Program-made: the position numbers and the translations under genes
NCBI RefSeq assembly: GCF_004022215.1
Contig: NZ_SAUZ01000035.1
Location: forward strand, 1 to 33,764
From: Paenirhodobacter populi
Lineage (GTDB): Bacteria; Pseudomonadota; Alphaproteobacteria; Rhodobacterales; Rhodobacteraceae
Reading direction: 5' to 3'
DNA length: 33,764 nucleotides
The notes under the pieces: generated by a model
Seen by the model: the letters and a program-made list of their open reading frames with translations, nothing else
What the model was told of the DNA's origin: nothing
Databases searched by the model: none
Shown here: positions 4,998 to 28,071 of the stretch, piece by piece
Position numbering within the stretch: position 1 is the stretch's first letter
How the letters are laid out: every line of letters begins with the position of its first letter

Positions 4998-5154
4998 TAT
5001 AAAATCAGTTTAGTTCCTATGGTAATCCTCCCTGTTTTAGCCCCCATGATCGTTGAACGAGCTGACTGGGTCGGTGGTCTCTCCCGCGGCATTCTCCGTT
5101 CGAGGGTTGCGCCGGATTGGCTGGTGCCGTGCCTCAGGAAGGGGGAGAGACCGA

Positions 5155-8109: not shown

Positions 8110-8120
8110 CTGCCCACTTA

Positions 8121-8208: not shown

Positions 8209-8220
8209 TAGCTCGATTTC

Positions 8221-10250: not shown

Positions 10251-10251
10251 G

Positions 10252-11016: not shown

Positions 11017-11609
11017 CCCTGCCGCGTTTCTATCCCATCTTCGAGAGCGCCGACTGGATCGCACGGATGCTGCCCCTTGGGGTGAAGCTGGTGCAGTTGC
11101 GCATCAAGGACCGGCCCGAGGCCGAGACCCGCGCTGAAATCATCCGCGCCCGTGACCTGTGCGGGGCCGCCGGCGCTATTCTGGTTGTCAACGATTACTG
11201 GCAGATTGCCATCGAGGAAGGCTGCGACTGGCTGCATCTGGGCCAGGAGGATCTCGATAGCGCCAATCTGGCGGCGATTCGGGCGGCGGGGCTACGGATC
11301 GGGGTTTCAACACATGACGAGGCGGAGCTTGGGCGGGCATTGGCTCTCGCCCCCGATTACGTGGCGCTCGGTCCGGTTTGGCCCACGATCCTGAAGCAGA
11401 TGAAATGGCACCGGCAGGGCACCGCGAAGCTGACCGAATGGAAGGCGCGGATCGGCGACATTCCCCTGATCGCCATTGGCGGGCTGACCACCGCCCGAGC
11501 GCCAGAGGCCTTTGCCGCAGGCGCCGATGTAGTCTCTGCCGTGACCGATATCACCCTGAACGCAGACCCTGAGGCGCGGGTCCGCGACTGGCTGCGGGTG
11601 ACGGGATGA
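11013..11609 (+). CDS. thiE: Thiamine phosphate synthase ThiE
   Basis: ThiE joins HMP-PP and the thiazole phosphate to thiamine monophosphate. The 198-residue TIM-barrel product has VQLRIKDRP (pyrophosphate/Mg site), [41 protein letters not shown] and [15 protein letters not shown], then [20 protein letters not shown]. All are in the expected order. It starts inside the thiG stop and ends overlapping thiF (ATGA). This is the shorter alphaproteobacterial form rather than a ThiDE fusion. Confidence 0.92.
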
Positions 11610-12619: not shown

Positions 12620-13563
12620 AAACACTGCGTTTGGTGGCCCTTGCGGCAACCCTTTGCCTTCCCCTGCCCGCGGTAGCCCAAGACCAGTTGACGCTGATCC
12701 TTGACTGGTATGTGAACCCCGATCATGCGCCGATCATCCTGGCGCAGGAACGCGGCTTCTTTGCCGATCAGGGGCTGGAGGTCGAGGTTATCGCGCCCGC
12801 CGATCCAAGCGAGCCGCCGAAGTTGGTGGCTGCTGGGCGCGCCGATCTTGCGATCAGTTACCAGCCGCAACTGCACCTGCAAGTGCATGAGGGTCTGCCG
12901 CTCGTGCGCGTCGGAACTTTGGTCGCGACACCGCTCAACTGTCTGATGGTGAAGGCCGATGGGCCGGTCCAGAGCCTGTCCGATCTGCGGGGCCGCAAGG
13001 TGGGCTATTCCGTTTCCGGGGTCGAGGAGGCGGTGATGGCGGCGATGCTGGGCTCGGTCGGACTCAGCATCGCGGATGTCGAAATGATCAATGTGAACTG
13101 GTCGCTGACGCCCGCAGTCCTGACTGGGCAGGTCGATGCAGTGATCGGGGCCTTTCGCAATTTCGAACTGACGCAGATGCGACTGGCCGGCGCAAACGGT
13201 CGCTGCTTCTTTCCTGAGGAGGCGGGTCTGCCCAGCTATGACGAGCTGATTTTTGTCGCCAATGCCGAGAGCCTCGACCGGAGCCGGGTGAACCGCTTCC
13301 TTGCTGCCATCGAGCGCGGCACCGAATACATGCTGAACCATCCCGATGAGGCCTTCGCGATCTTTGCCGCCACCTCGTCGGACCTATCGGACGAACTGAA
13401 CACCCGCGCCTGGGCTGATACGCTGCCGCGCTTTGCGCATAGCCCTGCCGCGTTGGATCATGGACGCTACGCGCGGTTCGAGGCGTTTTTGCATGAGGCC
13501 GGACTGATTGACAGCATCCTGCCGGTCTCGGCCCTCGCCCTTGATCCCGGGGCGGCGGAATGA
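12616..13563 (+). CDS. thiY: Pyrimidine-precursor ABC transporter substrate-binding protein (ThiY-like)
   Basis: The 315-residue product has a Sec signal peptide (MKTLRLVALAATLCLPLPA, cleavage after VA before QDQ) and the NMT1/THI5-like domain. Its diagnostic start is LTLILDWYVNPDHAPIILAQ, followed by ERGFFADQGLEVEVI. ThiY proteins bind N-formyl-4-amino-5-aminomethyl-2-methylpyrimidine or related degraded thiamine pyrimidines in the periplasm. The neighbouring tenA fits that salvage role. I chose ATG 12616, which overlaps the thiF stop and gives the signal peptide. The cognate permease is not in the window and the next transporter-like gene is truncated, so the uptake system is incomplete here. 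Confidence 0.88.
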   Translation: MKTLRLVALAATLCLPLPAVAQDQLTLILDWYVNPDHAPIILAQERGFFADQGLEVEVIAPADPSEPPKLVAAGRADLAISYQPQLHLQVHEGLPLVRVGTLVATPLNCLMVKADGPVQSLSDLRGRKVGYSVSGVEEAVMAAMLGSVGLSIADVEMINVNWSLTPAVLTGQVDAVIGAFRNFELTQMRLAGANGRCFFPEEAGLPSYDELIFVANAESLDRSRVNRFLAAIERGTEYMLNHPDEAFAIFAATSSDLSDELNTRAWADTLPRFAHSPAALDHGRYARFEAFLHEAGLIDSILPVSALALDPGAAE

Positions 13564-14237
13564 GTGCGCCGGACTACGGGCGCTGCTTTGTCGCGTGGCG
13601 CGCTGACTGTGCTGAACCGTGGTGGGCCTATACCCGCCACACCTTTGTCGAGGGGCTCTGCGACGGCACGTTGCCGCGCCCCGCATTCCTGACCTATCTG
13701 AGGCAGGACTATATCTTCCTGAAGCATTTCGCCCGCGCCTGGTCGTTGGCGGTAGTGAAGGCGGGTACTCTGACGGAGATGCAGACGGCGAGCGCCACGG
13801 TACACGCGCTGCTGCACACCGAGATGGCGCTTCATGTCGGCATCTGCGCGGCAGCCGGAATCGACCTTGAGGCTCTTGAGGCGACAGAGGAGGCCTCGGA
13901 GAACCTCGCCTATACCCGCTATGTGTTGGAAACAGGCTATTCCGGTGATTTCCTCGACCTCCTGGCGGCTCTGGCCCCCTGCGTTCTGGGCTATGGAGAG
14001 ATCGGCGCGCGCCTTCTGGCCGGTGCTGCGGATACGCCCTATCGCGACTGGATCGAGACCTATGGCGGAGCCGAGTATCAGCAACTCTGCTACGAGACCG
14101 GCGCGCTGATCGACAGGGCGGTCGCGGATCGGCTGGGGCCTGCGCCTGAGGCACTGCCGCGCTGGCGCGAGCTGTCTGCGCGATTTCGCACCGCCAGCCG
14201 GCTGGAAGCCGCGTTCTGGGGTCTGGGTCGGGCGTGA
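13560..14237 (+). CDS. tenA: Aminopyrimidine aminohydrolase TenA
   Basis: TenA hydrolyses aminomethyl-HMP to HMP for salvage of degraded thiamine; some members also split thiamine. The 225-residue all-helical protein shows LTYLRQDYIFLKHFARAWSL, HTEMALHVGICAAAGIDL, and LAALAPCVLGYGEIGARL with the catalytic Cys141. Glu residues near the C-terminus (RLEAAFWGLG) also match. It starts within the thiY stop (ATGA) and its own stop overlaps a GTG that begins another frame. Because thiC is not in this operon, TenA plus ThiY would supply the pyrimidine. Confidence 0.92.
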   Translation: MSAPDYGRCFVAWRADCAEPWWAYTRHTFVEGLCDGTLPRPAFLTYLRQDYIFLKHFARAWSLAVVKAGTLTEMQTASATVHALLHTEMALHVGICAAAGIDLEALEATEEASENLAYTRYVLETGYSGDFLDLLAALAPCVLGYGEIGARLLAGAADTPYRDWIETYGGAEYQQLCYETGALIDRAVADRLGPAPEALPRWRELSARFRTASRLEAAFWGLGRA

Positions 14238-14305
14238 GCGTCCCGGAAATCATATCGGTGCCGGTCGTGTCCGGGCAGGTGGTGATGGACGAAGCCCCGT
14301 GGCAT
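14234..14305 (+). pseudogene. 5' end of a further thi-operon gene, cut by the repeat
   Basis: A GTG overlapping the tenA stop (GTGA) opens a frame reading VSVPEIISVPVVSGQVVMDE and then APWH before TGA. The native sequence ends at 14300 where the 158-bp repeat starts; the last codons and the stop come from the repeat. In comparable operons thiY-tenA is followed by ABC transporter genes (thiX, thiZ). A start with '..I....V..SGQVVMDE' would suit an ABC ATPase, but 22 residues are too few to be sure. The coupling to tenA is the strongest sign that it is a real, truncated gene. Confidence 0.55.
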
Positions 14306-14458
14306 TGAAGATGGGTCGTCTAATCGCGGCCGGAATTGCAAGCACTTTCTTTGCGCCTCCAGACGAGTGGACGGTCGGAGGTTGATCGGGCGGTGGTCAT
14401 GTGAGGCCGTTGCGCTTGAGCTTTCAAGAGCGCGCCGTTGGTACGTTTGCCGGGTTCA
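14301..14458 (-). repeat. 158-bp inverted repeat, right copy
   Basis: This is the exact reverse complement of 7849-8006. Its inner edge (14300/14301) lies within the gene after tenA and matches the inner edge of the left copy to the base. At the outer edge (14458/14459) it passes into unrelated DNA, so unlike the left copy it has no transposase remnant attached and seems to be the stub of a deleted element. Confidence 0.9.
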
Positions 14459-15841: not shown

Positions 15842-16924
15842 TCAGCCGGGTGCAAGCTCTGTCCGATGCACGTTGGGGAACGCAAGATGGACCTGCGGCG
15901 CCGCGCCGAACTTGGCGCGGAAGGCCTTGGAGAAGGCCGAGCGCGAGGAATACCCGCAGGCGATGGCGATATCCAGAATCGACATGTCCGTTTCCGCCAG
16001 CAGGATCCGCCCGCGCTGCAACCTCAGATCCGCCGCATATTGCTGCGGCGTCATGCCCAGATGCTGCCGGAACAGCCGCTGGATCTGTCGCCGCGTCACG
16101 CCTGCGTGGCGCGCGCAGCCTTCCAGATCGAAGCCGTTCTCGATCTCCGCCTCGATATGCTCCGCCGCGCGCACGACGGTCATGTTCCGCGTCGCCAGCC
16201 GCGAAGCGAGCGAGGTGAACTGCACCTCTCCCTCGCGCCGCGAACTGGACAGCAGGCACATCTCCATCACCGCGCGCGACAGCGTCGTGCCGAAATGCGT
16301 CGCGATCAGGTTGAGCGCGAGATCCGCCCCCGCCACGCCGCCGGCGCAGGTGATGATCCGGTCGTCGAGGCAGAAGACCTGCCGCACCGGCTCCAGCCCC
16401 GGGAAGGTCTCGCGGAAGCCGGGGATGTTTTCCCAGTGCAGCGTGAAGCGGCGGCCTTCGAGGATCCCGCCCCGCGCCAGCGCATAGGCCCCGGTGCAGA
16501 GCCCGCCGACCGTCCGCCCGCGCCGCCACTGCGCCCGGATCCAGCTGCCAAGCGCCGGGCGCATGGTCACATCGGGCGTGACGCCGCCGCAGATCAGCAC
16601 GCAACCCGGCTCGGCCTCGTCCGGCAGTTTCCCATCGGGCAGGACCGGGATGCCGTTCGAGCTGCTGACCGGCTGGCCGTCCAGCGAACAGACATGCCAG
16701 CGGAACAGCACCCGCCCCGCCAGCTGGTTCGCCACGCGAAAGGGTTCCAGCGCCGAGGTGAAGGCAAGCATGGTGAACCGCGGCACAAGGACAAAGGTCA
16801 CCGTCACCGGCCCCTTGCCCTCCGGCACCGGCACATGGGCGGCGCCGGGGGCGACGAACCGGCTGTCGGCTTCGCCGCCTGTGGCCGGACTTCCCCCGAA
16901 ACCTGCACTGCGTTGTGTGGTCAT
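15842..16924 (-). CDS. GlxA-type AraC family transcriptional regulator
   Basis: The 360-residue protein combines a DJ-1/PfpI-like sensor domain with a C-terminal AraC helix-turn-helix pair. The sensor (about 40-215) contains VTFVLVPRFTMLAFTSALEP and GGLCTGAYALARGG, with Cys at the nucleophile elbow. The DNA-binding part (about 255-350) contains LEGCARHAGVTRRQIQRLFR and ILDIAIACGYSSRSAFSKAF. Regulators of this architecture control choline, carnitine, glycine-betaine and arginine catabolism in proteobacteria. It lies 53 bases after the racemase-family gene, last in the minus-strand transport operon, so it probably controls that operon or the divergent arm. Confidence 0.88.
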   Translation of the reverse strand: MTTQRSAGFGGSPATGGEADSRFVAPGAAHVPVPEGKGPVTVTFVLVPRFTMLAFTSALEPFRVANQLAGRVLFRWHVCSLDGQPVSSSNGIPVLPDGKLPDEAEPGCVLICGGVTPDVTMRPALGSWIRAQWRRGRTVGGLCTGAYALARGGILEGRRFTLHWENIPGFRETFPGLEPVRQVFCLDDRIITCAGGVAGADLALNLIATHFGTTLSRAVMEMCLLSSSRREGEVQFTSLASRLATRNMTVVRAAEHIEAEIENGFDLEGCARHAGVTRRQIQRLFRQHLGMTPQQYAADLRLQRGRILLAETDMSILDIAIACGYSSRSAFSKAFRAKFGAAPQVHLAFPNVHRTELAPG

Positions 16925-16977: not shown

Positions 16978-17967
16978 TCAGGCAATCTGGAATCCGTGGC
17001 GAAGCGGATCGCGGTCATCGACAAAGATCGTGTTGTGCCCGGTGATCCGCGCCCAAGCCCCGAGGCTCGGCCGGATGCCCGCGAATGGGCCGATGCGGAC
17101 CGCCTCCTCGATCCGGCCTTCGAAGATCGTGCCGATCGGGCTTTCGTTGCGCCACGACGCGCCGACGGCCAGACGCCCCCTGCCGTGAAGCTGCGCCATC
17201 CGGGCGAAGGTTCCGGTGCCGCCCGGCGAACGGTCGATCGCCCTGTCGCCATAGAAGACCGCACCGCGGCCATCCCCGCCCGCGCGCGGCGCATCGCACC
17301 AGATCACGTGATGCAGGCCGCGGATGTCGGGGTTTTCGGGGTGGACCGGCTCGACCACGCCCTGCAATGCGCAGAGCAGCCTCTGACTGAGGGACACGGT
17401 TTCCGCCGCGCCGGACAGGCCCGGCCAATGCGCCTGCGGCTCCACCACCGCGTAGAAATTGCCGCCATAGGCGATATCGACGCTGAGGGGGCCAAGCCCC
17501 TCGACCTCGGCCACCACGTCGCGCGCATGCAGATAGCTCGGCACGTTGAACAGCCGGACGGAGGCGACCCTGTCGCCCTCCATCTCATAGCGGACATCGA
17601 CCCGGCCCGCCGGTGTTTCCAGCGACAGTATCCCCGGAACGCGGGGCGTCACCAACCCCTCCTCGATCAGCACGGTCGACAGGCCGATGGTGCCCGCGCC
17701 GCACATGGGCAGGCAGCCGCTGACCTCGATGAACAGCACGGCGACGTCGCAATCCTCGCGCCAGGGCGGATAGAAGATCGCGCCCGACATGATGTCATGG
17801 CCGCGCGGCTCGAACATCAGGGCGGTGCGGATCCAGTCATGGTCGCGCAGGAACAGCGCCCGCCGGTCCGCGATGGGCAGATGCGGCAGGATCGGCCCGC
17901 CGCCCGCGACGACGCGGACCGGGTTGCCGCAGGCATGGGAGTCGATGCAGAAGAAGGTCTTCCTCAT
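16978..17967 (-). CDS. Proline racemase superfamily protein with atypical active site
   Basis: The 329-residue product has the fold signatures of 4-hydroxyproline 2-epimerase/proline racemase: IDSHACGNPVRVVAGGGP at the N-terminus, LPMCGAGTIGLS around Cys89, YGGNFYAVVEPQAHW, and GDRAIDRSPGGTGTFARM. In racemases and epimerases two Cys face each other; in trans-3-hydroxyproline dehydratases the second is Thr. Here position 249 (codon 17223-17221, GGC) is Gly and the usual His after MCG is Ala91. Ordinary two-base epimerisation is therefore unlikely unless another residue takes over. It starts inside the permease stop (ATGA), so it is co-translated with the importer and should act on the imported compound. 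It could be a dehydratase-like variant or a damaged epimerase. Confidence 0.82.
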   Translation of the reverse strand: MRKTFFCIDSHACGNPVRVVAGGGPILPHLPIADRRALFLRDHDWIRTALMFEPRGHDIMSGAIFYPPWREDCDVAVLFIEVSGCLPMCGAGTIGLSTVLIEEGLVTPRVPGILSLETPAGRVDVRYEMEGDRVASVRLFNVPSYLHARDVVAEVEGLGPLSVDIAYGGNFYAVVEPQAHWPGLSGAAETVSLSQRLLCALQGVVEPVHPENPDIRGLHHVIWCDAPRAGGDGRGAVFYGDRAIDRSPGGTGTFARMAQLHGRGRLAVGASWRNESPIGTIFEGRIEEAVRIGPFAGIRPSLGAWARITGHNTIFVDDRDPLRHGFQIA

Positions 17968-18818
17968 GATTTGCCACCCTTGTCGCGACCCTGTTGCAAG
18001 ATACCGCGCGACAGCCGGTCCATCAGCAGGGCGACGGCGACGATGGCCAGTCCCGCCCGCAGGCCCAGCCCCATCTCCATCCGGGTCAGGCCGCGCGTCA
18101 CCTCGGCCCCCAGTCCGCCGGCCCCGACCAGACCGGCCAGAACCACCATCGCCAGCGACAGCAGGATGCACTGGTTTAGGCCCACCAGCAGCGTCGGCAT
18201 GGCGGTCGGGATCTCGATCCTGAACAGCACCGCACGGGGCGAGGCGCCGATCGCCGCCCCCAGTTCCCTGAACGCGACGGGCACCTGACGGAAGGCCAGC
18301 GTGGTCAGCCGCAGCATCGGCGGGATGCCGTAGATGATCGTCGCCATGATCGCCGGCACCCGGCCGAGGCCGAAGATCATCACCGCCGGGATCAGATAGA
18401 CCCACGGCGGCACCGTCTGCATAATGTCGAGGACCGGACGCAGGACCGCCTCGACCTTCGGCCGGCGCGCGGCGAGAACGCCGAGCGGGAAAGCGATGGC
18501 GACCGACAGGATCACCGCGACGGTGACCAGCGCGATGGCCTGCATCGTCTCGCGCCACAGCCCCATCAGCAGCACGAAGCCAAGACAGGCGGCGATCAGG
18601 ACCGCCAGCCGCCAGCCGATCAGGAAGAACACCGCCAGCGCCGCGATGGCGATCACCGCCGGCGCGGGCAGGACGAGCAGGACGAATTCAAGGGCCGACA
18701 GCGCCGCCTCGACCCCCCGGCCGATCGCCGCGAAGACCCCGTGGAAATGCGCGTTCAGCCAGTCGACAGCCGGCGCCAGCGCCCGGCCGGGCGAGATTTG
18801 CAGAAAGGACAGATCCAT
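17964..18818 (-). CDS. ProW-type ABC transporter permease (second)
   Basis: The protein has about 284 residues and several hydrophobic segments: FVLLVLPAPAVIAIAALAVF, VLIAACLGFVLLMGL, and more. The core is the BPD_transp_1 region with MQTVPPWVYLIPAVMIFGLG and the coupling-helix motif FRELGAAIGASPRAVLFRIE. This resembles ProW/OpuAB permeases of glycine-betaine/proline importers. ATG 18818 overlaps the stop of the first permease (TGATG). AAGGAG lies upstream. Two similar but non-identical permeases in a row indicate a heterodimeric channel. Confidence 0.88.
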   Translation of the reverse strand: MDLSFLQISPGRALAPAVDWLNAHFHGVFAAIGRGVEAALSALEFVLLVLPAPAVIAIAALAVFFLIGWRLAVLIAACLGFVLLMGLWRETMQAIALVTVAVILSVAIAFPLGVLAARRPKVEAVLRPVLDIMQTVPPWVYLIPAVMIFGLGRVPAIMATIIYGIPPMLRLTTLAFRQVPVAFRELGAAIGASPRAVLFRIEIPTAMPTLLVGLNQCILLSLAMVVLAGLVGAGGLGAEVTRGLTRMEMGLGLRAGLAIVAVALLMDRLSRGILQQGRDKGGKS

Positions 18819-19657
18819 CACGCCTTCTCCTTCGGCGGCACGAGCCCTTGGGTGATGCGGTCGATGATCATCGTCAGGATGACGATGGCGATGGCCGCGT
18901 CGATCGACTTCGCGATGTCGAGCGTGCGGATCGCGTCATAGATCGTCTTGCCAAGACCGCCCGAGCCGACGATCCCCGCGATCACCACCATGCCGAAGGC
19001 CATCATCAGCCCCTGATTGATGCCCGCCATGATCGACGGCAGGGCGAAAGGCAGGCGGATCTTCGTGAACATCTGCCAGCCGTTGACGCCGCTTGCCTCG
19101 CCGAGTTCGCGAAAGGCCTCGGGCGTCTGCCGGATGCCAAGGGCGGTCAGCCGGATCACCGGCGGCATGGCGACGATCACCGTGGCGACCAGCGCCGTCG
19201 CCGTCCCGTAGCCCAGCAGCGCGATGGCCGGCAGCAGGTAGATATAGGGCGGCAGCGTCTGCACGAGGTCCAGCACCGGCTCGATCAGCCGGTCGAGCCC
19301 GGTCGTATAGCCCACGAGAACCCCAAGCGGCAGCGCAAGCGCCAGCGTGATCAGCATCGCGCTGATCACCAGCGCGAGCGTGTCCATCGTCTCGGGCCAG
19401 AGCCCGGTCGCCCAGCACAGCCCAAGGCCGAGGGCCGCCAGCGCGCCGAACCCGCGCCCGACGAGCCACCAGCCAAGCGCCCCGCCGATCAGCGCGATTG
19501 TCCAGGCGGGCGGCCAGCCGACGCCATCGAGGACAAGGCGATAGAACCCGTCCAGCACGACCCGCGCGCCGTCGAACAGGAAATCCGCATTGTCGCTCAG
19601 CCAGAACAGCGCATCATCGACCGTGTTGTCGAACCCTTCGACAAAGCCGTCAGCCAT
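18818..19657 (-). CDS. ProW-type ABC transporter permease (first)
   Basis: The 279-residue permease shows a hydrophobic N-terminal part (WTIALIGGALGWWLVGRGF) and the conserved core VLDLVQTLPPYIYLLPAIAL. The EAA-type loop FRELGEASGVNGWQMFTKIR contacts the ATPase, and SIMAGINQGLMMAFGMVVIA follows. It is of the ProU/OpuA family. It starts 8 bases inside the ATPase gene behind GGAGGCG, and ends overlapping the second permease. Confidence 0.9.
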   Translation of the reverse strand: MADGFVEGFDNTVDDALFWLSDNADFLFDGARVVLDGFYRLVLDGVGWPPAWTIALIGGALGWWLVGRGFGALAALGLGLCWATGLWPETMDTLALVISAMLITLALALPLGVLVGYTTGLDRLIEPVLDLVQTLPPYIYLLPAIALLGYGTATALVATVIVAMPPVIRLTALGIRQTPEAFRELGEASGVNGWQMFTKIRLPFALPSIMAGINQGLMMAFGMVVIAGIVGSGGLGKTIYDAIRTLDIAKSIDAAIAIVILTMIIDRITQGLVPPKEKA

Positions 19658-20735
19658 GATCGCCTCCCTGCGCCGCGGGCGCTTCGCGCAGGCTCAGCAG
19701 CAGGTTCCGCATCGTGATCACGCCGACGGCCTGCCCCTGATCGACCACCGCCACCGCACCCTGCGCGGCCTCGGTGATCTGGCCGATCAGGGCGGCGACA
19801 TCGGCATCGGGCGCGGCTGCCGGCAGGGTGTCGAGCGCGATATCCGGATGCTGGTGCCGGAACTCGGCCACCGGGATCATCACCGAATGCGCCTTGACCA
19901 GATGCACACGCGAAATCCCCGCGACGAAATCCGCCACATATTGATCGGCCGGGTTCAGGATGATCTCTTCCGCCGTGCCGGTCTGGATGATGGCGCCGTC
20001 CTTCATGATCGCGATGCGGTCGCCGATGCGGATCGCCTCATCGAGATCATGGGTGATGAACACCGCCGACTTGCCAAGCTCCTTGGTCAGCTGCCGGAAT
20101 TCATCCTGCAATTGCCGCCGGATCAGCGGATCGAGCGCCGAGAAGGGCTCGTCCATCAGGATGATCTCAGGATCCGAGGTCAGCGCGCGCGCAAGGCCCA
20201 CCCGCTGCTGCATCCCGCCCGACAGCTCGGACGGATAGCGATCGAGCCATTCCGAAAGCCCGACCTTCGCCAGCGAGGCCCTTGCCGCGGCGTTGCGTTC
20301 CGCGCGTGGGACGCCCTGCACCTCCAGCCCGAAGCCCGCATTCTCCAGCACCGTCCGGTTCGGCAGCAGGGCGACCGACTGGAACACCATGCCGATGTGA
20401 CGGGCGCGCATCTCGCGCAGGCGCGCGGTGTCGAGGCGGGACAGATCCTCACCCTTGACCAGAACCTTGCCGAGGCTCGGGTCGATCAGCCGGTTCAGCA
20501 TGCGGATCAGCGTGGACTTGCCGGACCCCGACAACCCCATGATGCAGAAGATCTCGCCCCGCCGGACCTGAAGCGAGGCGCCGGACACGCCGACCACGCA
20601 ATTGAACTGTTGCAGCACATCCGCCTTCGTCGCGCCGCGTTCGGACACGGCGCGAATCGCGGCCTCGGTCTTGTCGCCGAAGATCTTCCACAGCGACTGG
20701 CAATCGACGAGCACCTCGGCTCTGGATTCGTTCAT
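19650..20735 (-). CDS. ProV-type ABC transporter ATPase with CBS region
   Basis: This 361-residue ATPase powers a quaternary-amine-type importer. It has Walker A MGLSGSGKSTLIRMLNRL, the Q-loop in IGMVFQSVALLPNRTVLENA, the signature LSGGMQQRVGLARALT, Walker B IILMDEPFSALDPLIRRQL and the H-switch FITHDLDEA. After residue 270 comes a shorter CBS-like tail (about 275-350, ending GVITMRNLLLSLRE). In OpuA such a region senses ionic strength; in ProV-type catabolic importers its role is open. An insert near residues 20-45 resembles the ProV N-terminus. The start at 20735 has GGGGAG upstream. It follows the binding-protein gene after a hairpin. Confidence 0.92.
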   Translation of the reverse strand: MNESRAEVLVDCQSLWKIFGDKTEAAIRAVSERGATKADVLQQFNCVVGVSGASLQVRRGEIFCIMGLSGSGKSTLIRMLNRLIDPSLGKVLVKGEDLSRLDTARLREMRARHIGMVFQSVALLPNRTVLENAGFGLEVQGVPRAERNAAARASLAKVGLSEWLDRYPSELSGGMQQRVGLARALTSDPEIILMDEPFSALDPLIRRQLQDEFRQLTKELGKSAVFITHDLDEAIRIGDRIAIMKDGAIIQTGTAEEIILNPADQYVADFVAGISRVHLVKAHSVMIPVAEFRHQHPDIALDTLPAAAPDADVAALIGQITEAAQGAVAVVDQGQAVGVITMRNLLLSLREAPAAQGGDHG

Positions 20736-20813: not shown

Positions 20814-21662
20814 TTATTGTTTGATGTTCTCCCAGCGGGAAATCAGATCGCCATGCGCGGCGATCCAGTCCGCAACCGCCTGATCCATCGTCTTGCCGTC
20901 GCTGACCTCGCTGTTGATCGCGGTGATGTCGGCAAGCGGCAGGTAGACGCTGGCGATGGCTTCGCGCGCCTCGGGATCGGCCTCGGAAAAGCCCTTCTGC
21001 CCGATCCAGTAATAGGTCTGCGGCGGCGGGAAGACGCCCTTCGGATCGTCAAGGAAGCGCAGGTTGAACTTCTGCATCATCCAGGACGGCTGCCAGACGG
21101 TGACGGCGATCCATTCCTTGCGGTCGACCGCGGATTTCAGCGCGGCGGTCATCGCGGCGGTGCTGCCCTCGACCAGTTGCGGCTTCAGATCGTATTCCTT
21201 GACCGCCTCGGCCGCATCCCGCATCAGGCCCGAACCCGGCTCGATGCCGATGATCTTGCCGCCGAACTTGTCCGCGTTGTCGTTGAGCTGCTCGATCGAG
21301 GTGATCCCGACGTAATCCGGCACCGCGATCGCCTGATAAAGACCATGCGACACGGGCGAGATCTTTTCCAGACGGCGCTTGTTCTTGTCCCAGTAGTCAT
21401 GCGCGGCATAGTCGGTCTGCGAGGTCAGCAGTTGAATGTCGCCCTTGGCCAAGGCCGCATAGGCGATCCCCCATTCCGAGAAGGACGTGACCTCGACCGT
21501 GTAGCCCTTGTCTTCCAGCACCTTTTTCGTGACCCCGGTGATCGGGGTCAGGTCTTCCCAGGACAGCGTGCCCATCTTGATGGTCTTGTCCGCGGCATAG
21601 CCGGGGATCGCGGTCATCGCGACCATCGCGGCCGCGCAGAGTGTCTTCCAGATGGCTTTCAT
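20814..21662 (-). CDS. OpuAC-type periplasmic substrate-binding protein
   Basis: The 282-residue product has a Sec signal peptide (MKAIWKTLCAAAMVAMTAIP, cleavage after YA before ADKT) and the type-II binding fold of glycine-betaine/choline binding proteins. KMGTLSWEDLTPITGVTKKV, GIEPGSGLMRDAAEAVKEY and WIAVTVWQPSWMMQKFNLRF are typical. The aromatic residues Trp and Tyr spread through the sequence could form the cage that binds a quaternary ammonium group. I chose ATG 21662 because AGGGAGA precedes it; the open frame upstream adds a segment without signal-peptide character. It leads the minus-strand operon. Confidence 0.9.
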   Translation of the reverse strand: MKAIWKTLCAAAMVAMTAIPGYAADKTIKMGTLSWEDLTPITGVTKKVLEDKGYTVEVTSFSEWGIAYAALAKGDIQLLTSQTDYAAHDYWDKNKRRLEKISPVSHGLYQAIAVPDYVGITSIEQLNDNADKFGGKIIGIEPGSGLMRDAAEAVKEYDLKPQLVEGSTAAMTAALKSAVDRKEWIAVTVWQPSWMMQKFNLRFLDDPKGVFPPPQTYYWIGQKGFSEADPEAREAIASVYLPLADITAINSEVSDGKTMDQAVADWIAAHGDLISRWENIKQ

Positions 21663-22233
21663 TTTTATGTCTCCCTGTGGTTTGAGCCAGTTCTTGTGCG
21701 CGCAAGGACCAAGATCCGGCATGGAGGAAAGCCGTGACCAAAGGCGAGTGGTGTTTCCGTAAGCTGATCTTCTCGGATAAGCTTAATCTTTTCCGGCCAG
21801 AGCAGCAGAAGTCACCCTTCCTCAGGATATCCCGGACCATACGCTTGGAATTTCCCGGGTTTTCACGGCGTTCAGCACCGGATTCGGCCACGGAACAGCG
21901 CATAATCTGGATGGCTAGCAAGGGAAATTGGATATGTATTGGATATTTACGACATTAAACTAAAATAATTGCGACATGCCTTCAGAAAGACCTTGGCCGC
22001 ATCAATATTCATCTCGATGAAAATAGGGGATGGTGTCTTTTTAGAGCATAATAATATTTTACTTATGTAAGTGCGATGAAAATTCTCGTTTGCAATGGGG
22101 CGGAATTTGGCCTGAACATCTGCCGATCCGCCGACCGCCCCGATCATGGACGGCCCCGGAAAAGGCAAGACCTGCCCCGCCCCGGCAGCCTTCCGGCCTG
22201 CTGATCTGAAATTTCGCTAGTGGTGATGCGACG
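21663..22233. promoter_or_regulatory. Divergent regulatory region of the catabolic island
   Basis: This 570-base gap separates two divergent operons and is much richer in A+T than its surroundings between 21920 and 22090. I see three regular elements. TAAGCT/AGCTTA are inverted arms at 21760-21765 and 21780-21785. A tandem ATTGGATAT lies at 21927-21935 and 21938-21946 (11-bp period). The palindrome ACTTATGTAAGT-like ACTTA-TG-TAAGT lies at 22062-22073. No gene is supported. These are natural places for GlxA/AraC, GcvA/LysR and RNA polymerase binding. Exact promoters are not assigned. Confidence 0.5.
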
Positions 22234-23151
22234 ATGACATTCCGACTGACGCTTGAGGGAATTTACACGCCCCTCGTCACGCCCCTGAAGGACGATGGCG
22301 GTTTCGACCTCGACCGGCTCGCCGATCTGGTGGAGCATTTGATTGACAAGGGCGTGCATGGCCTGATTTCCGGCGGTTCGACCGGCGAGAACTATGCCCA
22401 GACGGTCGAGGAACGGCTTGCGCTCGCCCGGTTCGTGACCGAGCGGGTCAAGGGCCGGCTGCCGGTCATCGTCGGCACCGGCGCGATGCGCACGCCCGAC
22501 AGCATCGCCCTTGCGCAAGGCGCGCGCGAGATGGGTGCGGATGCGCTGCTGCTGGGCACGCCGCCCTATTCCGTACCGACCGAGCGTGAAAACGCGCTCA
22601 ACGCGCTGGCCATCGACCGCGCGGCCGATCTGCCGATCATCCTGTATAACTATCCCGGCCGGATGGGCGTCTCGATGGGGGAGGATTTCCTCAACCGCGT
22701 CAGCCGCTCGCGCAATGTCATCGGGATCAAGGAAAGCTCGGGCGACATCAACCGCGTCCACCTGCTCGCGCGCGACTATCCGCATATCCAGATGTCCTGC
22801 GGCATGGACGATCAGGCGCTGGAATTCTTTGCCTGGGGCGCGCGGAGCTGGATCTGCGCGGGCTCGAACTTCCTGCCCGAGGAACATGTCTACCTTTATG
22901 AAACCTGCGTGCTGAACGGCGATTTCGCCAAGGGCCGCGGGATCATGTCGGCGATGATGCCGCTGATGCGGGTGCTGGAACAGGGCGGCAAGTTCATCCA
23001 GTGCGTCAAGCACGGCACGACCCTGGCCGGCATCCCCACCGGCCCGATGCGCCCGCCGCTCAAGGGCCTGAACAAGGACGAGAAACGCGAGCTGCAACAG
23101 GTCATCGCGGTTCTGAAAACCACCATCGCAGCGATCAAGGCAGGGAACTGA
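22234..23151 (+). CDS. Dihydrodipicolinate synthase family lyase/deaminase
   Basis: The 305-residue (beta/alpha)8 protein has LEGIYTPLVTPLKDDGGFDL, the substrate carboxylate motif GGSTGENYAQ, catalytic Tyr138 in ILYNYPGRMG and Schiff-base Lys166 in VIGIKESSGD. Members of this family act as aldolases or as deaminase/dehydratases; in hydroxyproline catabolism the family member converts pyrroline-4-hydroxy-2-carboxylate to alpha-ketoglutarate semialdehyde. Being first in an operon with an aldehyde dehydrogenase and a DAO oxidase fits that kind of step better than lysine synthesis. Three bases separate it from the next gene. Confidence 0.87.
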   Translation: MTFRLTLEGIYTPLVTPLKDDGGFDLDRLADLVEHLIDKGVHGLISGGSTGENYAQTVEERLALARFVTERVKGRLPVIVGTGAMRTPDSIALAQGAREMGADALLLGTPPYSVPTERENALNALAIDRAADLPIILYNYPGRMGVSMGEDFLNRVSRSRNVIGIKESSGDINRVHLLARDYPHIQMSCGMDDQALEFFAWGARSWICAGSNFLPEEHVYLYETCVLNGDFAKGRGIMSAMMPLMRVLEQGGKFIQCVKHGTTLAGIPTGPMRPPLKGLNKDEKRELQQVIAVLKTTIAAIKAGN

Positions 23152-23154
23152 GCC

Positions 23155-24663
23155 ATGACGGACCTTCTCACCCGCGAAGAATACGAGGCGCTGGCCGCAT
23201 CGCTCAGCTTCCCCGCGAATGCCTTCATCGACGGCGGCTTCCGTCCGGCGAAATCCGGCAAGACCTTCCCCACGACCAATCCGGCGACGGGGGCGAAGCT
23301 CGCCGATGTCGCCGCCTGCGGGCCGGAGGACGTGGATTTCGCCGTCGCCAAGGCGCGCGACGCCTTTGAAGACGGGCGCTGGTCGCGGCTCGCCCCCGGC
23401 GCGCGCAAGGAGGCGCTGGTGCGCCTTGCCAAACTGGTCGATCGCAACCGCCACGAACTGGCCGTGATGGAAAGCCTCGACAGTGGCAAGCCGATCTACG
23501 ATTGCGCGACGGTCGACATTCCCGAAACGGTCAACACGCTGAAATGGCACGCCGAGCTGATCGACAAGATCTACGATCAGGTGGCGCCTGCCTCGGACGA
23601 TCACATAGCGCTTGTGGTGCGCGAGCCGGTGGGGGTCGTCGGGCTGGTCGTGCCGTGGAACTTCCCGCTGCTTATGATGGCGTGGAAGATCGGCCCGGCG
23701 CTGGCCGCCGGCTGCTCGGTCGTGCTCAAGCCCGCCGCGGAAACCTCGCTCACCGCGCTGCGTCTGGCGGAGCTGGCGATGGAGGCGGGCCTGCCCGCGG
23801 GTGTGCTGAACGTCGTCACCGGATCCGGGGTCGAGGCGGGTGAACCGCTTGGCCGCCACCCGGACGTGGACATGGTGTCCTTCACCGGCTCGACCGTGAC
23901 GGGGCGGCGCTTCCTGTATTATTCGGCGGAATCGAACCTGAAGGAAGTCGTGCTGGAGATGGGCGGCAAGAATCCCTGCATCGTACTCGACGATGCCGAG
24001 GATCTGGACGCGGTGGCCGCCCATGTCGTCAACGGCGCCTTCTGGAACATGGGCGAGAACTGCTCGGCCGCGTCGCGGCTGATCGTGCAGAAGGGGATCA
24101 AGGCGCGGCTTTTGCAAAAGATCGCCGAACATGCGCGCGAATGGAACGTGGGCGATCCGCTGGATCCCGCGGTGCGGATCGGCGCGCTGGTGTCGAAGAC
24201 GCATTTCGACAAGGTGGCGGGCTACCTTGAGGCCGCGCAGGACGGCACCATCGTCATCGGCGGCAAGGCGCTGAACGGCACCCATGTCGAGCCGACGGTC
24301 GTCGAGGTCGCGGGCAACGACCACCGGCTGGCGCGCGAAGAGATCTTTGGCCCGATCCTCGCCGTGATCGAGGTTGCCAGCTTCGACGAGGCGATCCGCA
24401 TCGCCAATGACACGGATTACGGTCTGGCCGCCTCGATCTTCACCGCGAACGGCAAGCGGGCGCTGCGCGGCGCGCGGATGCTGCGGGCGGGCACGGTGAC
24501 GGTCAACAGCTTTGGCGAGGGCGACATCTCGACCCCGTTCGGCGGCTACAAGCAGTCGGGCTTCGGCGGGCGCGACAATTCGATCCACGCGCATGACCAG
24601 TATACCCAGCTCAAGACGATCTGGCTGGATCTTTCCGACGACGCGGATACCGCCATCGACTGA
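23155..24663 (+). CDS. NAD(P)-dependent aldehyde dehydrogenase
   Basis: The 502-residue protein is a complete class-I-type ALDH: PWNFPLLMMAWKIGPALAAG (cofactor site), SFTGSTVTGRRF, Glu268 in VVLEMGGKNPCIV, nucleophile Cys303 in NMGENCSAASRLIV, EEIFGPILAVI, and PFGGYKQSGFGGRDNS near the end. It resembles PuuC and betaine-aldehyde-type enzymes. In context it may oxidise a semialdehyde formed by the lyase before it (alpha-ketoglutarate semialdehyde if the substrate is hydroxyproline-like). The substrate cannot be read from sequence. A strong hairpin follows the stop. Confidence 0.9.
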   Translation: MTDLLTREEYEALAASLSFPANAFIDGGFRPAKSGKTFPTTNPATGAKLADVAACGPEDVDFAVAKARDAFEDGRWSRLAPGARKEALVRLAKLVDRNRHELAVMESLDSGKPIYDCATVDIPETVNTLKWHAELIDKIYDQVAPASDDHIALVVREPVGVVGLVVPWNFPLLMMAWKIGPALAAGCSVVLKPAAETSLTALRLAELAMEAGLPAGVLNVVTGSGVEAGEPLGRHPDVDMVSFTGSTVTGRRFLYYSAESNLKEVVLEMGGKNPCIVLDDAEDLDAVAAHVVNGAFWNMGENCSAASRLIVQKGIKARLLQKIAEHAREWNVGDPLDPAVRIGALVSKTHFDKVAGYLEAAQDGTIVIGGKALNGTHVEPTVVEVAGNDHRLAREEIFGPILAVIEVASFDEAIRIANDTDYGLAASIFTANGKRALRGARMLRAGTVTVNSFGEGDISTPFGGYKQSGFGGRDNSIHAHDQYTQLKTIWLDLSDDADTAID

Positions 24664-24691
24664 CCCCTGTCGGCCCGATGGGCCGTCCTCT

Positions 24692-24716
24692 GGCCGGAGG
24701 CGCCCCGCCTCCGGCC
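24692..24716 (+). terminator. Strong hairpin between aldehyde dehydrogenase and oxidoreductase genes
   Basis: GGCCGGAGGCG (24692-24702) and CGCCTCCGGCC (24706-24716) form a perfect 11-bp stem with a CCC loop, followed by CCTTTG. The T-tail is short, so it may attenuate rather than end transcription before the oxidoreductase gene, or protect the upstream mRNA. Confidence 0.6.
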
Positions 24717-24737
24717 CCTTTGATGCCGAGATCCCCG

Positions 24738-26090
24738 ATGCCCAGACCCGGTTCCTTCCGCGCCGTCCGCCTTCCCCGCCTCGCAGGTCCCGCGGCGTGG
24801 GACAGCATCCTTGGCCCGCGCCCCGCCGCGCCGCCGCCCGAAGGAACCCGACGCGCGGATTTCGTCGTCATCGGCGGCGGCTTCGCGGGGCTGTCCGCCG
24901 CGCGGCGGCTGTTGCAGCTGGCGCCCGAGGCGAAGATCGCGGTGCTGGATGCGGGCCAGATCGGGCAAGGCTCGGCCGGGCGCAACTCGGGCTTCATGAT
25001 CGACCTGCCGCATGAACTGACGTCCGAGGATTATGCCGGCGCGGATACCGGATCCGACCGCACGCTGATCGCGCTGAACCGGCAGGCCATCGCCTTCGCC
25101 GCCGAGGCGGTGCAGGAATACGCCATTCCCGCCGGCTATTTCCGCCGCGACGGCAAGGTGAACGGCGCGGCAAGCCGCCATGCCGACGCGCAGAACACCG
25201 CCTACGCCAAACACCTCGCCCTGATCCAGGAACGGTATGAGGTGCTTGACGCCAAGGCGATGCGCGACCTGACGGGATCCGCCTATTACCGCTCGGGCCT
25301 CTATACGCCGGGCACGGTGATGATCCAGCCAGCGGGCTATATCCGCGGCCTTCTGGCCGGGCTGTCGCGCCGGGTGGCGGTCCACGAAGACACGCCGGTC
25401 ACCGATCTGATCCGCTGCGATCACGGCTGGCAGGTGGTGACGCCGCAGGGCCGGATCGACGCGGGGACGGTGATCCTTGCGAACAACGGACATCTCGAAA
25501 GCTTCGGTTTCGCGCGCAGGCGGCTGATGCACATCTTCCTCTTCGCCTGCATGACCGAAGAGCTTTCGCCCGACGCCCTGCGGCGCACCGGCGGCGCCGA
25601 CTGCTGGGGGATCACCCCGTCGGACCCGATGGGCACGACGATGCGGCGGATCTCGACCGCACAGGGCGGCAACCGGATCATCACCCGGACGATGGCGAAG
25701 TTCCTGCCCCACATGGTCACTTCGGGCTGCCAGATGCGCCGCGCCATGACGATGATGCGGGCCAAATTCGACGCGCGCTATCCGCAGCTTGCGGATGTCA
25801 GGATGGAATTCGGCTGGAGCGGGCATCTGTGCCTGACGCAGAACAACAGCTCCGTCGCGGGGCGGCTGGATGAGGACCTTTTCGCCGCCTGCGTCTGCAA
25901 CGGGCTCGGCACCACGCGCAGCACGCTGACCGGCATCGCCGCCGCCGAAGCCGCGCTTGGGCACGACAGCGCGATCACCCGGTTCTTCGCCGCGCAACAC
26001 CTGCCCGCGCGATTGCCGCCCGCCCCCCTTGCACAGATCGGGGCAAACCTGTTCATTCGATGGAAGGAATGGCGTGCGCGCAAGGAGTGA
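24738..26090 (+). CDS. DAO-type FAD-dependent oxidoreductase
   Basis: The roughly 450-residue product has an N-terminal lead (FRAVRLPRLAGPAAWDSILG) and the FAD-binding motif DFVVIGGGFAGLSAARRLLQ. LDAGQIGQGSAGRNSGFMID follows, then a DAO fold ending in GRLDEDLFAACVCNGLGTTR near the second flavin contact. Relatives include gamma-glutamylputrescine oxidase (PuuB) and amine or D-amino-acid oxidases, which oxidise C-N bonds. In a hydroxyproline-like pathway it would oxidise the D-imino acid. In-frame ATGs at 24678 and 24723 are possible, but 24678 lies upstream of the hairpin, so 24738 or 24723 is preferred. No strong ribosome site is seen. Confidence 0.87.
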   Translation: MPRPGSFRAVRLPRLAGPAAWDSILGPRPAAPPPEGTRRADFVVIGGGFAGLSAARRLLQLAPEAKIAVLDAGQIGQGSAGRNSGFMIDLPHELTSEDYAGADTGSDRTLIALNRQAIAFAAEAVQEYAIPAGYFRRDGKVNGAASRHADAQNTAYAKHLALIQERYEVLDAKAMRDLTGSAYYRSGLYTPGTVMIQPAGYIRGLLAGLSRRVAVHEDTPVTDLIRCDHGWQVVTPQGRIDAGTVILANNGHLESFGFARRRLMHIFLFACMTEELSPDALRRTGGADCWGITPSDPMGTTMRRISTAQGGNRIITRTMAKFLPHMVTSGCQMRRAMTMMRAKFDARYPQLADVRMEFGWSGHLCLTQNNSSVAGRLDEDLFAACVCNGLGTTRSTLTGIAAAEAALGHDSAITRFFAAQHLPARLPPAPLAQIGANLFIRWKEWRARKE

Positions 26091-26173
26091 CGGATATCGG
26101 CGATCGAGCGGACAAGAATGGGTCTTCGGATCGGGATTCCCGACCAGTCTATCGGCTGCCCAAGCGGAGAAAT

Positions 26174-27103
26174 ATGCCTTCGTTGGGTGCTTTCGCGACC
26201 TTCGAGGTGGCCGCGAAGCATCTGAGCTTCACCCAAGCGGCGAGTGAGCTCAACGTGACGCAGGCGGCCATCAGTCAACAGATTCGGGGCTTGGAAAAGG
26301 CGCTTGATCGGCGGCTCTTCCTGCGCAAATACAACGGCATGGAACTGACCTTTGAAGGCCAGATGTTGCTCGAGGCGGTGACGCAGGGGCTCGACCGGCT
26401 GAGCGAGGCGATCTTCCGCATCGGCCAGAGTGGCGGTAGCCAGACCCTCACCATCGCGGGCACCTATGCGGGCGTGTCGAATTTCATCAAACCGATCGCC
26501 GATGATTTTCGCCGCACCAATCCCGATGTGGGATTCACTCTGCTCGCCTCGGACGAGAATGACCGGCTGCAGGATTTCGACGAGGTCGATCTCGCGGTGA
26601 TCTGCGGCCATGGCCGCTCCGAGATCGGTCCGAATCTGATAGCGCTGTTTCCAGAGGTGGTAGAGCCGGTTTGTTCGCCAGCCTATCTGGCGGCACATGG
26701 TCCTTTCGTCTCGCCCACCGATCTTGCACACGCCGACCTGATGGAGTTACACCGGATGCATTGGAGTTCCGACGCGATCGCATGGTATCCGCTGACCTGG
26801 CGCGACTGGTTCCGCAAGCATGCACCCGAAGTCGATGAGATCCCGCAGGATTTTGTCTCGAACAGCTACGGCCTTCTGGTCGATGCGGCCGAGGAGGGCC
26901 AGGGCGTCATCCTTGGCTTCCGCCATCTGGTGCATCAGGCAGTGACCGAAGGGCGGCTGGTGCGGATATTCGACCGGCCCCTCAACGCAGGGCGGACTTA
27001 CTACCTCAAGATCAATCCACGCACTGGCAAACATCCAAATGTCCGCGCCTTCGTCACCTATCTGCTTGATGCCATCGAGGACATCCCGATGCTGAAACGC
27101 TGA
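26174..27103 (+). CDS. GcvA-type LysR transcriptional regulator (first)
   Basis: The 309-residue protein opens with the LysR helix-turn-helix: LGAFATFEVAAKHLSFTQAA, ELNVTQAAISQQIRGLEKAL, FLRKYNGMELTFEGQMLL. It continues with the periplasmic-binding-like effector domain. The AFEVAA/LSFTQAA form is that of GcvA-like regulators. It is about 80 bases downstream of the oxidoreductase gene in the same direction. I chose ATG 26174 (GCGGAG upstream); the frame is open further upstream and relatives have about 9 more residues before PSLGA, so the start is uncertain. It is clearly related to the regulator at 28441, with many identical residues in the DNA-binding domain and in the VEPVC.P.YLAAHGPF segment. 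Confidence 0.88.
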   Translation: MPSLGAFATFEVAAKHLSFTQAASELNVTQAAISQQIRGLEKALDRRLFLRKYNGMELTFEGQMLLEAVTQGLDRLSEAIFRIGQSGGSQTLTIAGTYAGVSNFIKPIADDFRRTNPDVGFTLLASDENDRLQDFDEVDLAVICGHGRSEIGPNLIALFPEVVEPVCSPAYLAAHGPFVSPTDLAHADLMELHRMHWSSDAIAWYPLTWRDWFRKHAPEVDEIPQDFVSNSYGLLVDAAEEGQGVILGFRHLVHQAVTEGRLVRIFDRPLNAGRTYYLKINPRTGKHPNVRAFVTYLLDAIEDIPMLKR

Positions 27104-27138
27104 GCATAGTGCGGTTCCCGGCGCGCGGGGGGAATGCG

Positions 27139-28071
27139 ATGATATCTTCATGGTCATCCCTGCGTTTCGGGATTCTGCCACTCGAGGATTTCGAACTGGC
27201 CGCTTTGGCTGCGTTCATGGATGCGTTGCGCTTCGCGGGCGGAGCGGCTGATACCCGCTGCGCCTGGAATATTCTTTCATTGGACATGGAGCCTATACGG
27301 GCGGACAGCGGCATAGCCATTCAGCCCGATGCACCTCTATCCGATCCATCCCAGATCGACTATCTCGTTGTGATCGGCGGAGCCTCTCCCCCGGACAGGC
27401 CGATCCCGGAGGATGTCACTCGTCTACTTCGTTCCGCGGCGGAAGGCGCTACCCGCGTTATCGCTTTGCGCTCCGGTGTGTTCGCCCTCGCGGAGGCGGG
27501 GCTGCTCGATGGCTGCGGATGCAGTGTCGAGCTGGCTCTGCATATGGATTTCCGCGAAAGATTTCCGCGTACTATTCCGTTGCCGGACGCCTTCGTAATT
27601 GACGGATGCAGCCTGACCTGCGCGGAGAACCGAGGTGTTAGCGATTTGGCGGCACATGTTGCCTCTGCACACCACGGCAGAACTGGCCTCCGGGAGACCT
27701 CGACGCCATTGAGTTCAAGCGCGCAGGATCCACTCGTGGTTGCGGCTCTGCTCTGGATGGGGCAAAACCTCGAAATCGCGCAGACGATTGAGGACCTCGC
27801 CCGGGATATGCGCGTTAGTCGCCGCAAGCTGGAGCGTCATTTTCGCGCCGACATCGGGAAATCTCCTCAGAAGGCCTATATGTCGCTCCGGCTTGCAAAG
27901 GCGAAGCGCCTCCTGAGGACGACGGACGAGTCGATCAGCGAGATCGCCCTGTCCTGCGGGTTTTGCGATGCCTCGCATCTCGTCCGGTTGATGAAAGGTA
28001 ATCTCGGCATGACTCCCGCGCAGATCAGGAAAGTGATGGATACTCGCGATGACGAGGCGTCTGCCCCCTAG
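27139..28071 (+). CDS. GlxA-type AraC family regulator (second)
   Basis: The 310-residue product has an N-terminal DJ-1/PfpI-like domain (RFGILPLEDFELAALAAFMD, YLVVIGGASPPDRP, RVIALRSGVFALAEAGLLDG) and a C-terminal AraC domain (IEDLARDMRVSRRKLERHFR, ISEIALSCGFCDASHLVRLM). At the nucleophile elbow it has Ser ('LRSGV') where the regulator at 15842 has Cys ('LCTGA'). ATG 27139 follows GGGGGGAA; a GTG at 27109 would also be in frame. The gap to the preceding LysR gene is 35 bases, suggesting a joint transcript. The target is not known from sequence. Confidence 0.85.
   Translation: MISSWSSLRFGILPLEDFELAALAAFMDALRFAGGAADTRCAWNILSLDMEPIRADSGIAIQPDAPLSDPSQIDYLVVIGGASPPDRPIPEDVTRLLRSAAEGATRVIALRSGVFALAEAGLLDGCGCSVELALHMDFRERFPRTIPLPDAFVIDGCSLTCAENRGVSDLAAHVASAHHGRTGLRETSTPLSSSAQDPLVVAALLWMGQNLEIAQTIEDLARDMRVSRRKLERHFRADIGKSPQKAYMSLRLAKAKRLLRTTDESISEIALSCGFCDASHLVRLMKGNLGMTPAQIRKVMDTRDDEASAP

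Follow-up and report, generated by a model that had tools for sequence, protein, structure and literature searches.

What reaction does a member of the proline racemase superfamily catalyse when a glycine stands where the second catalytic cysteine is expected? The question is raised by a gene of Paenirhodobacter populi, found in positions 1 to 33,764 of contig NZ_SAUZ01000035.1 (assembly GCF_004022215.1), a stretch of 33,764 nucleotides referred to here as the window. The gene is encoded on the minus strand and specifies a protein of 329 aa (MRKTFFCIDSHACGN...HGFQIA). As the original prediction had it, the protein carries Cys89 in MCGAGTIG, Ala91 and Gly249 in DRSPGGTGT, and the codons, read directly, lie at 17701-17703, 17695-17697 and 17221-17223, respectively. 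The protein is also otherwise full length, as had been claimed: PF05544, the sole family that it matched, covers it with its entire profile (1-325/325; 388 bits, cut-off 27), which makes it a proline racemase superfamily member and not, like HpbD, an enolase superfamily member. The NCBIfam model NF010578, named '4-hydroxyproline epimerase', scores 509 bits (cut-off 376). Because the start codon of the gene and the stop codon of the permease gene before it share 4 bases (ATGA, in the junction CATGAGG), the proposed translational coupling to an importer gene is plausible. The enzyme gene and its neighbours are listed in Table 1.

Table 1. Genes of the Cys/Gly enzyme operon and adjoining regulators, in window coordinates.
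Feature	Position	Strand	Residues, profile scores or remarks
Cys/Gly proline-racemase-superfamily enzyme	16978..17967	-	Cys89, Ala91, Gly249; also Ser61, His220, Tyr239, Asp245
ABC importer permease 2, betaine/choline type	17964..18821	-	TIGR03416 259 bits, below cut-off 363
ABC importer permease 1, betaine/choline type	18818..19657	-	TIGR03416 232 bits, below cut-off
ABC importer ATPase, betaine/proline/choline family	19650..20735	-	TIGR01186 352 bits, above cut-off 326.6
Periplasmic substrate-binding protein (SBP), OpuAC family	20814..21722	-	PF04069 224 bits
DHDPS-family lyase	22234..23151	+	PF00701 202 bits
Aldehyde dehydrogenase (ALDH)	23155..24663	+	Best NF007352 PuuC 531 bits, below cut-off 850; 7uyy 729 bits
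FAD-dependent oxidase, DAO family	24678..26090	+	PF01266 139 bits; TIGR03329 and AmaA weak, both below cut-off
GlxA/GbdR-like AraC regulator, downstream of enzyme	15842..16924	-	NF052371 GbdR 278 bits, below cut-off 480
LysR-type regulator, end of DHDPS-ALDH-FAD genes	26060..27103	+	LysR annotated at the same place in L092 and L093
Second GlxA/GbdR-like AraC regulator	27109..28071	+	NF052371 154 bits, below cut-off

A scan of species genomes returned 261 relatives, the best 80 of which formed our locus set. All of these 80 carry Cys, Ala and Gly at the three positions, which rejects an isolated mutation or sequencing error; close homologues uniformly bearing Cys or Thr, the outcome named beforehand as fatal to the prediction, did not appear. 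The homologues among these best 80 of 261 come from Paracoccus, rhizobia, Pseudomonas, Azospirillum and others. Of 398 Pseudomonadota genomes sampled, 7 (that of the window among them) contained a DNA motif for DRSPGGTGT, against 0 for a reversed-pattern control, and the seven loci (L125-L131) are all absent from the alignment rows that depart from Cys/Ala/Gly. A wider alignment had 121 rows, each 290-420 aa long and together representing 120 distinct proteins, as the enzyme of the window was entered twice. It comprised 90 Cys/Ala/Gly, 18 Cys/His/Cys, 7 Cys/His/Thr, 3 Ser/Ser/Thr, 2 Ser/Gly/Cys and 1 Cys/His/Gly rows, a set assembled around the Cys/Ala/Gly clade and not a fair sample of the superfamily; the 90 clade rows represent 89 distinct proteins.

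Two trees were built from this alignment. With the three catalytic columns included and no bootstrap, a 72-row tree (41 Cys/Ala/Gly rows out of 90, plus 31 others) separated the Cys/Ala/Gly rows from the rest by a branch of SH-aLRT 100 and grouped them with 14 Cys/His/Cys epimerases (support 99). With the catalytic columns and the long rows L155, L144, L147 and L115_5118 removed, a tree of 44 rows (17 Cys/Ala/Gly) gave the branch a support of 97/92, and it was present in 100% of 200 bootstrap trees. The suggestion that Cys/Gly together with CGAG would define a clade is thus borne out by the residue table and by both trees, and on the aligned sequences this clade is sister to the Cys/His/Cys hydroxyproline epimerases. 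A very divergent superfamily member elsewhere (L155; G448 C1:3182239-3183162), with Cys/His/Gly and DRSPGVGG, is not close to it and lies within 9 kb of two further superfamily genes. Among the matches listed in a literature search over titles and abstract starts, with most subscription papers outside its reach, there was no Cys/Gly member and no proline-racemase-type betaine epimerase; the main text of PMC4113996, in its accessible portion, contains neither 'glycine' nor 'Cys-Gly', and its 51 assayed proteins may still include a Cys/Gly one.

We then mapped the substrate pocket, using the seven substrate sites that the accessible text of PMC4364671 lists from the 4J9X complex and a phmmer alignment of the enzyme to 6j7c. 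We infer 6j7c to be TlProR because it has a Trp six residues before the Asp of DRSP, like Trp241 of TlProR. On this mapping, site 1 changes from Phe62 to Ser61, site 3 from His90 to Ala91, site 4 from Leu221 to His220 and site 5 from Trp241 to Tyr239, and site 6 (Asp247) corresponds to Asp245. HypE enzymes carry Ser or Val at site 1, His at site 4 and Cys or Tyr at site 5; the enzyme has HypE-type residues at all three, and Ser61, His220 and Tyr239 are invariant in 90/90 clade rows. The same 90/90 holds for the retained Asp245 and for the replacement of the His90 equivalent by Ala and of the second Cys by Gly. Because sites 1, 4 and 5 are of HypE type, the clade keeps the HypE environment of the 4-hydroxyl group, while the nitrogen-binding His and the second thiol have been lost: in the parts of PMC4113996 available, the prolyl nitrogen is coordinated by Asp232 and His90.

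The catalytic pair itself matches none of the patterns compared here. Cys89/Gly249 is not the Cys/Cys or Ser/Cys pair by which 4-hydroxyproline 2-epimerases have an acid/base residue on each of two opposite faces, Gly249 is not the Thr found opposite the first Cys or Ser in trans-3-hydroxyproline dehydratases, and Ser61, Tyr239 and Gly249 differ from the Phe at sites 1 and 5 and the two Cys of ProR. For the Ser/Cys enzyme B9JQV3, the first residue acts in the trans to cis direction, according to the accessible text of PMC4113996. The closed pocket of proline racemase is extremely confined, as the available portion of PMC8142540 describes it, which would fit a need for enlargement if N-methyl groups were to be taken in. 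When the 90 clade rows are set against the 14 rows of their Cys/His/Cys sisters, nine positions emerge as fixed differences at cut-offs of 95% and 85% (82, 91, 174, 224, 225, 233, 249, 280 and 297), and at six more (28, 103, 181, 273, 311 and 322) the clade residue is absent from the 14 sisters. Cys224 and Asp225, both fixed in the clade, lie beyond His220 in the sequence; we considered Cys224 as a possible replacement second thiol, but it stands four residues beyond His220, probably on the same strand.

The expectation that the clade keeps the same neighbours largely held. Among the best 80 of 261 relatives, a permease match lies directly upstream of the enzyme gene in 75/80 loci, and in 71/80 loci an adjacent permease is joined by SBP, ATPase, DHDPS, ALDH and FAD genes within 10 kb (identity to the window's proteins of at least 50%, 60%, 45%, 50% and 30%, respectively). 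Nine loci fall outside the 71 (L013, L014, L015, L020, L024, L038, L042, L044 and L051), L051 being cut by a contig end and L038 having a different importer. A GntR relative is present in 62 of these 80 loci. Three annotated plasmids share the order GntR-DHDPS-ALDH-FAD-SBP-ATPase-permease-permease-enzyme, followed in two of the three by GlxA; a fourth has the permease, enzyme and GlxA only, and on two Paracoccus plasmids (L092, L093) the operon halves are divergent, as in the window.

The solved structures nearest to the SBP are OpuA (7ahc/3l6g) and OpuAC (2b4l). Its WQPSWMM differs from the WSPHWMF/WTPHWMF of solved OpuA/OpuAC proteins by a His to Ser exchange, also seen in the four relatives compared, and its ligand may differ from glycine betaine. 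The window's DHDPS retains YNYPGR, the Arg of which we take to be DapA-like. In the mammal-type pathway, the FAD enzyme is a hydroxyproline dehydrogenase and the DHDPS enzyme a 4-hydroxy-2-oxoglutarate aldolase, and YNYPGR prompted us to consider this pathway for the window's FAD and DHDPS enzymes. The DAAO, DHDPS and ALDH superfamilies are tied to 4-hydroxyproline catabolism in the accessible text of PMC4113996; at the superfamily level, the enzyme's usual neighbours are those that act after epimerisation in that pathway.

Elsewhere in the window, a perfect 158-base inverted repeat (7849-8006 and 14301-14458) flanks a thiamine gene cluster at 8285-14237, in which an NMT1-like SBP and TenA were recognised by Pfam and the other genes by eye; a TPP riboswitch lies at 8116-8220, and the whole looks like a mobile or IS-bounded cassette. 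Transposase- and recombinase-like ORFs, judged by eye, lie on both sides of the operon (2417-3577, 5053-6271, 29602-31227 and 31705-33648), which thus sits in a mobile-looking region, perhaps of a plasmid; many relatives of the enzyme are on plasmids.

The same genome also contains a separate, canonical hydroxyproline locus (L098), where a Cys/His/Cys epimerase is accompanied by DAAO, DHDPS and a gene that by eye looks aconitase-X-like. The window's FAD and DHDPS proteins are only 23% and 25% identical to those of L098, and so do not count as orthologous to the canonical c4Hyp oxidase and Pyr4H2C deaminase; they belong to other subfamilies, and their reactions are predictions. In 45 of the 80 Cys/Gly genomes we counted HypE and HpbD. 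A full-length relative of the L098 HypE (66-84% identity, judged by identity alone) is present in 16/45, a seventeenth genome (G502) has a partial match at 85%, and 29/45 are without a full-length relative. The canonical Cys/His/Cys loci L098, L099 (where the gene is near a contig end) and L100, taken with their flanks, gave no SBP, HpbD, MttB or Rieske match at E 1e-15, and in a small sample of ten genomes with Cys/His/Cys enzymes HpbD was found in 0/10 at 55% identity or more, with two matches at 35-37%. Beside the canonical HypE of the window's genome, L098:8181-10130 (G000 contig 10) has a short N-terminal PRS match and then a C-terminal fragment 60% identical to a second proline-racemase gene of P. 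pantotrophus; it is probably a decayed gene. On a plasmid of Mesorhizobium sp. NZP2077 (L115), the FAD-DHDPS-ALDH module occurs in another combination, with two other proline-racemase genes (Cys/His/Cys and Ser/Gly/Cys) and a ProX-type importer at its flanks.

A different comparison came from loci in which HpbD occupies the place of the Cys/Gly enzyme. In Leisingera (L112) and Cereibacter (L111), importer-GntR-DHDPS-ALDH-FAD genes are combined with SDR-SDR-HpbD-MttB; the betaine importer is present, and DHDPS, ALDH and FAD are 67-74%, 74-78% and 52-61% identical to those of the window. The Leisingera enolase gene scores 632 bits against 4e8g, which, like 4izg and 4j1o, we take to be HpbD of P. 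denitrificans, an enzyme whose part in the betaine pathway was reportedly described by Zhao in 2013 and Kumar in 2014. It scores 588 bits against 4h2h, a 4-hydroxyproline betaine 2-epimerase according to the accessible text of PMC11961199. The P. pantotrophus relative (72%) is annotated hpbD, in the order LysR-Rieske-Red-HpbD-FdhA.

Compared with HpbD loci L112, L111, L119 and L123, the Cys/Gly gene stands among genes that elsewhere accompany HpbD in three loci. Mesorhizobium L038 reads GntR-importer-DHDPS-ALDH-FAD-Cys/Gly enzyme-GlxA-MttB-SDR-SDR, its importer being of the P. pantotrophus hpb type (50-65%); the 21 kb locus contains no HpbD, and elsewhere on that contig, some 47 kb from the Cys/Gly gene, lies an HpbD relative of 55% identity. 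In P. versutus (L117), the Cys/Gly operon is followed by unassigned ORFs that look like transposases and then LysR (85%), Rieske (78%), reductase (93%) and FdhA (93%), about 5 kb from the operon on the same plasmid; 57 bases separate the Red and FdhA ORFs, where P. pantotrophus has HpbD, and the 2.24 Mb plasmid record gave no HpbD match at E 1e-60 (positive-control records, 4/4 matched). The L117 DHDPS is 28% identical to the window's and 69% to that of S. mexicanum L123, and its FAD is 63% identical to that of L123, where DHDPS and FAD lie 10-13 kb from an HpbD and the window-type ALDH was not seen. In Agrobacterium L039, the Cys/Gly gene is followed by hpb-type P5CR (41%), reductase (75%), Rieske (83%) and LysR (69%) genes. 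Pseudomonas loci L068-L070 have Rieske (53%) and FdhA (71-72%) genes on either side of the Cys/Gly gene; two SDRs are also present in L069 and in L070, and the latter has an enolase relative at 34%.

FAD and DHDPS matches occur in 3/8 HpbD loci examined (L111, L112 and L123) and in none of the other five (L119-L122 and L124), and HpbD loci L120-L122 and L124 have little or nothing in common with the core operon; in five further loci (L110, L113, L114, L116 and L118), a FAD-DHDPS(-ALDH) module occurs in the absence of both HpbD and the Cys/Gly gene. The module tracks HpbD only loosely. HpbD at more than 45% identity is in 0/80 Cys/Gly loci (best 80 of 261), and the window's genome gave no match. 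An HpbD relative of 55-76% identity is present in 8/45 Cys/Gly genomes, L038's among them, and we rejected the idea that the two genes are mutually exclusive. They share contexts and may replace each other; the argument from exchange is weaker because of the HpbD-locus counts and the HpbD relative in L038's genome. The core operon is without a demethylase gene. Among the best 80 of 261, a Rieske match occurs in 23/80 loci, only 15 of them above 45% identity, and MttB in 1/80. We did not use the presence of Rieske relatives in 41/45 Cys/Gly genomes as evidence, because glycine betaine monooxygenase (GbcA-type) is alike and matches too. On contig 45 of the window's genome, a Rieske relative (55%) adjoins a reductase (64%).

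Because of the HypE-type pocket, the operon and the HpbD-type context in three loci, we read the enzyme as an HpbD-type epimerase. It is, by a modest balance of probability, a one-thiol C2-epimerase for N-methylated 4-hydroxyproline and a non-orthologous counterpart of HpbD. More tentatively, at a confidence just short of even, the widespread clade may be a one-thiol epimerase for quaternary-ammonium 4-hydroxyproline betaine that convergently replaces the enolase-superfamily HpbD and has given up His and Cys for the N-methyl groups. The betaine would be imported by the co-encoded OpuA/ProU-type importer; Ala91, through loss of the nitrogen-binding His, and Gly249, through loss of the second thiol, would make space for the N-methyl groups. 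Cys89 would take the alpha proton on the L face, and the other face might be reprotonated by water in the Gly249 space, as a guess, or by another residue. A Rieske or MttB-type enzyme, whose gene may lie nearby or elsewhere, would demethylate the product, after which the FAD enzyme would oxidise it, the DHDPS-family enzyme would open or cleave it and ALDH would oxidise the result to central metabolites. The original prediction had offered an unusual substrate, to which a quaternary betaine-type compound, fitting pocket and gene context, lends support. It had also offered a lyase or dehydratase rather than an epimerase, and this part finds no support, with the clade among HpbD-accompanying genes in three loci and its usual neighbours belonging to superfamilies (DAAO, DHDPS and ALDH) that act after epimerisation in hydroxyproline catabolism.

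As a one-base dehydratase or lyase, the enzyme would use Cys89 to take the alpha proton and return it to a C3 leaving group, perhaps of a 3-hydroxylated betaine. One thiol at the first position with a non-acid second residue is the dehydratase pattern (Cys/Thr, Ser/Thr), and a Cys-to-Thr exchange in the human enzyme has been linked to dehydratase activity in the accessible text of a review (PMC8142540). Yet the clade groups with the Cys/His/Cys epimerases and not with the Cys/His/Thr group, the sites around the 4-hydroxyl are HypE-type, and a search with the OCD of L119 (E 1e-25) gave 0/80 loci (best 80 of 261) with a relative of the reductase, of ornithine-cyclodeaminase type, that follows dehydration, and so no Pyr2C reductase of the OCD type, which also counts against the dehydratase half of the original prediction. 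By our own reasoning, moreover, a product with a quaternary nitrogen could not become a ketimine, and a dehydratase seems unlikely.

An ordinary 4-hydroxyproline 2-epimerase acting on free hydroxyproline, with water in place of the second thiol and an importer for (hydroxy)proline, we consider improbable to a similar degree. It would agree with the NCBIfam name and with neighbours that, at the superfamily level, are those of t4Hyp catabolism (accessible text of PMC4113996), and it stays open in the 29/45 genomes that have no full-length HypE relative; it sits less well with the separate HypE locus, complete with DAAO and DHDPS, in the window's genome and with the 16/45 genomes that have a full-length HypE relative besides, and it gives no reason for a betaine-type importer or an HpbD-type context. 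Finally, it is distinctly unlikely that the enzyme epimerises or racemises some other N-methylated cyclic amino acid, such as proline betaine, pipecolate-type betaines or N-methyl-hydroxyproline. The SBP is OpuAC-type, the FAD protein is weakly like L-pipecolate oxidase, and the R. acidisoli operon is adjoined by a Rieske oxygenase (GbcA-like, below cut-off), an oxidoreductase and putA, all of which such a substrate would suit. The invariance of Ser61, His220 and Tyr239 would be needless for a substrate without a hydroxyl, but these residues are shared by descent with the Cys/His/Cys sisters, in which they are invariant too (14/14).

If the betaine epimerase reading is true, a superfamily of two-base enzymes includes an epimerase that needs only one base from the protein, and a hydroxyproline-epimerase-type enzyme has been re-tooled for betaines. 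Betaine catabolism would gain a second, unrelated epimerase, and the name '4-hydroxyproline epimerase' would be corrected for proteins of many soil and plant-associated bacteria. It would also raise the question of what protonates the face opposite Cys89.

Among known systems, the closest is 4HypE/HypE (for example PDB 4J9X, Cys88/Cys236), which shares the fold family, the first Cys, sites 1, 4 and 5 and, at the superfamily level, the DAAO, DHDPS and ALDH neighbours; the enzyme is 57-59% identical to Cys/His/Cys paralogues of the same genus. The clade differs in having Gly for the second Cys, Ala for the nitrogen-binding His, a betaine-type importer and other DAAO and DHDPS subfamilies. With proline racemase (Cys/Cys, Phe at sites 1 and 5), it shares the superfamily, the first Cys and the Asp of DRSP, whereas it has Ser61 and Tyr239 for Phe and no second Cys. 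Trans-3-hydroxyproline dehydratase (Cys/Thr, Ser/Thr) resembles it in that the first position alone supplies an acid/base residue, but has Thr as its second residue, keeps the His after MCG in the 7 Cys/Thr rows, forms a separate clade and has ornithine-cyclodeaminase or MLD2 neighbours. HpbD (PDB 4H2H), by contrast, is of an unrelated family, the enolase superfamily, and uses two lysines, at positions 163 and 265 (accessible text of PMC4532418); what it shares with the clade, in some loci, is the company it keeps, namely the importer, FAD-DHDPS-ALDH, SDRs and MttB, or the Rieske, reductase and FdhA genes.
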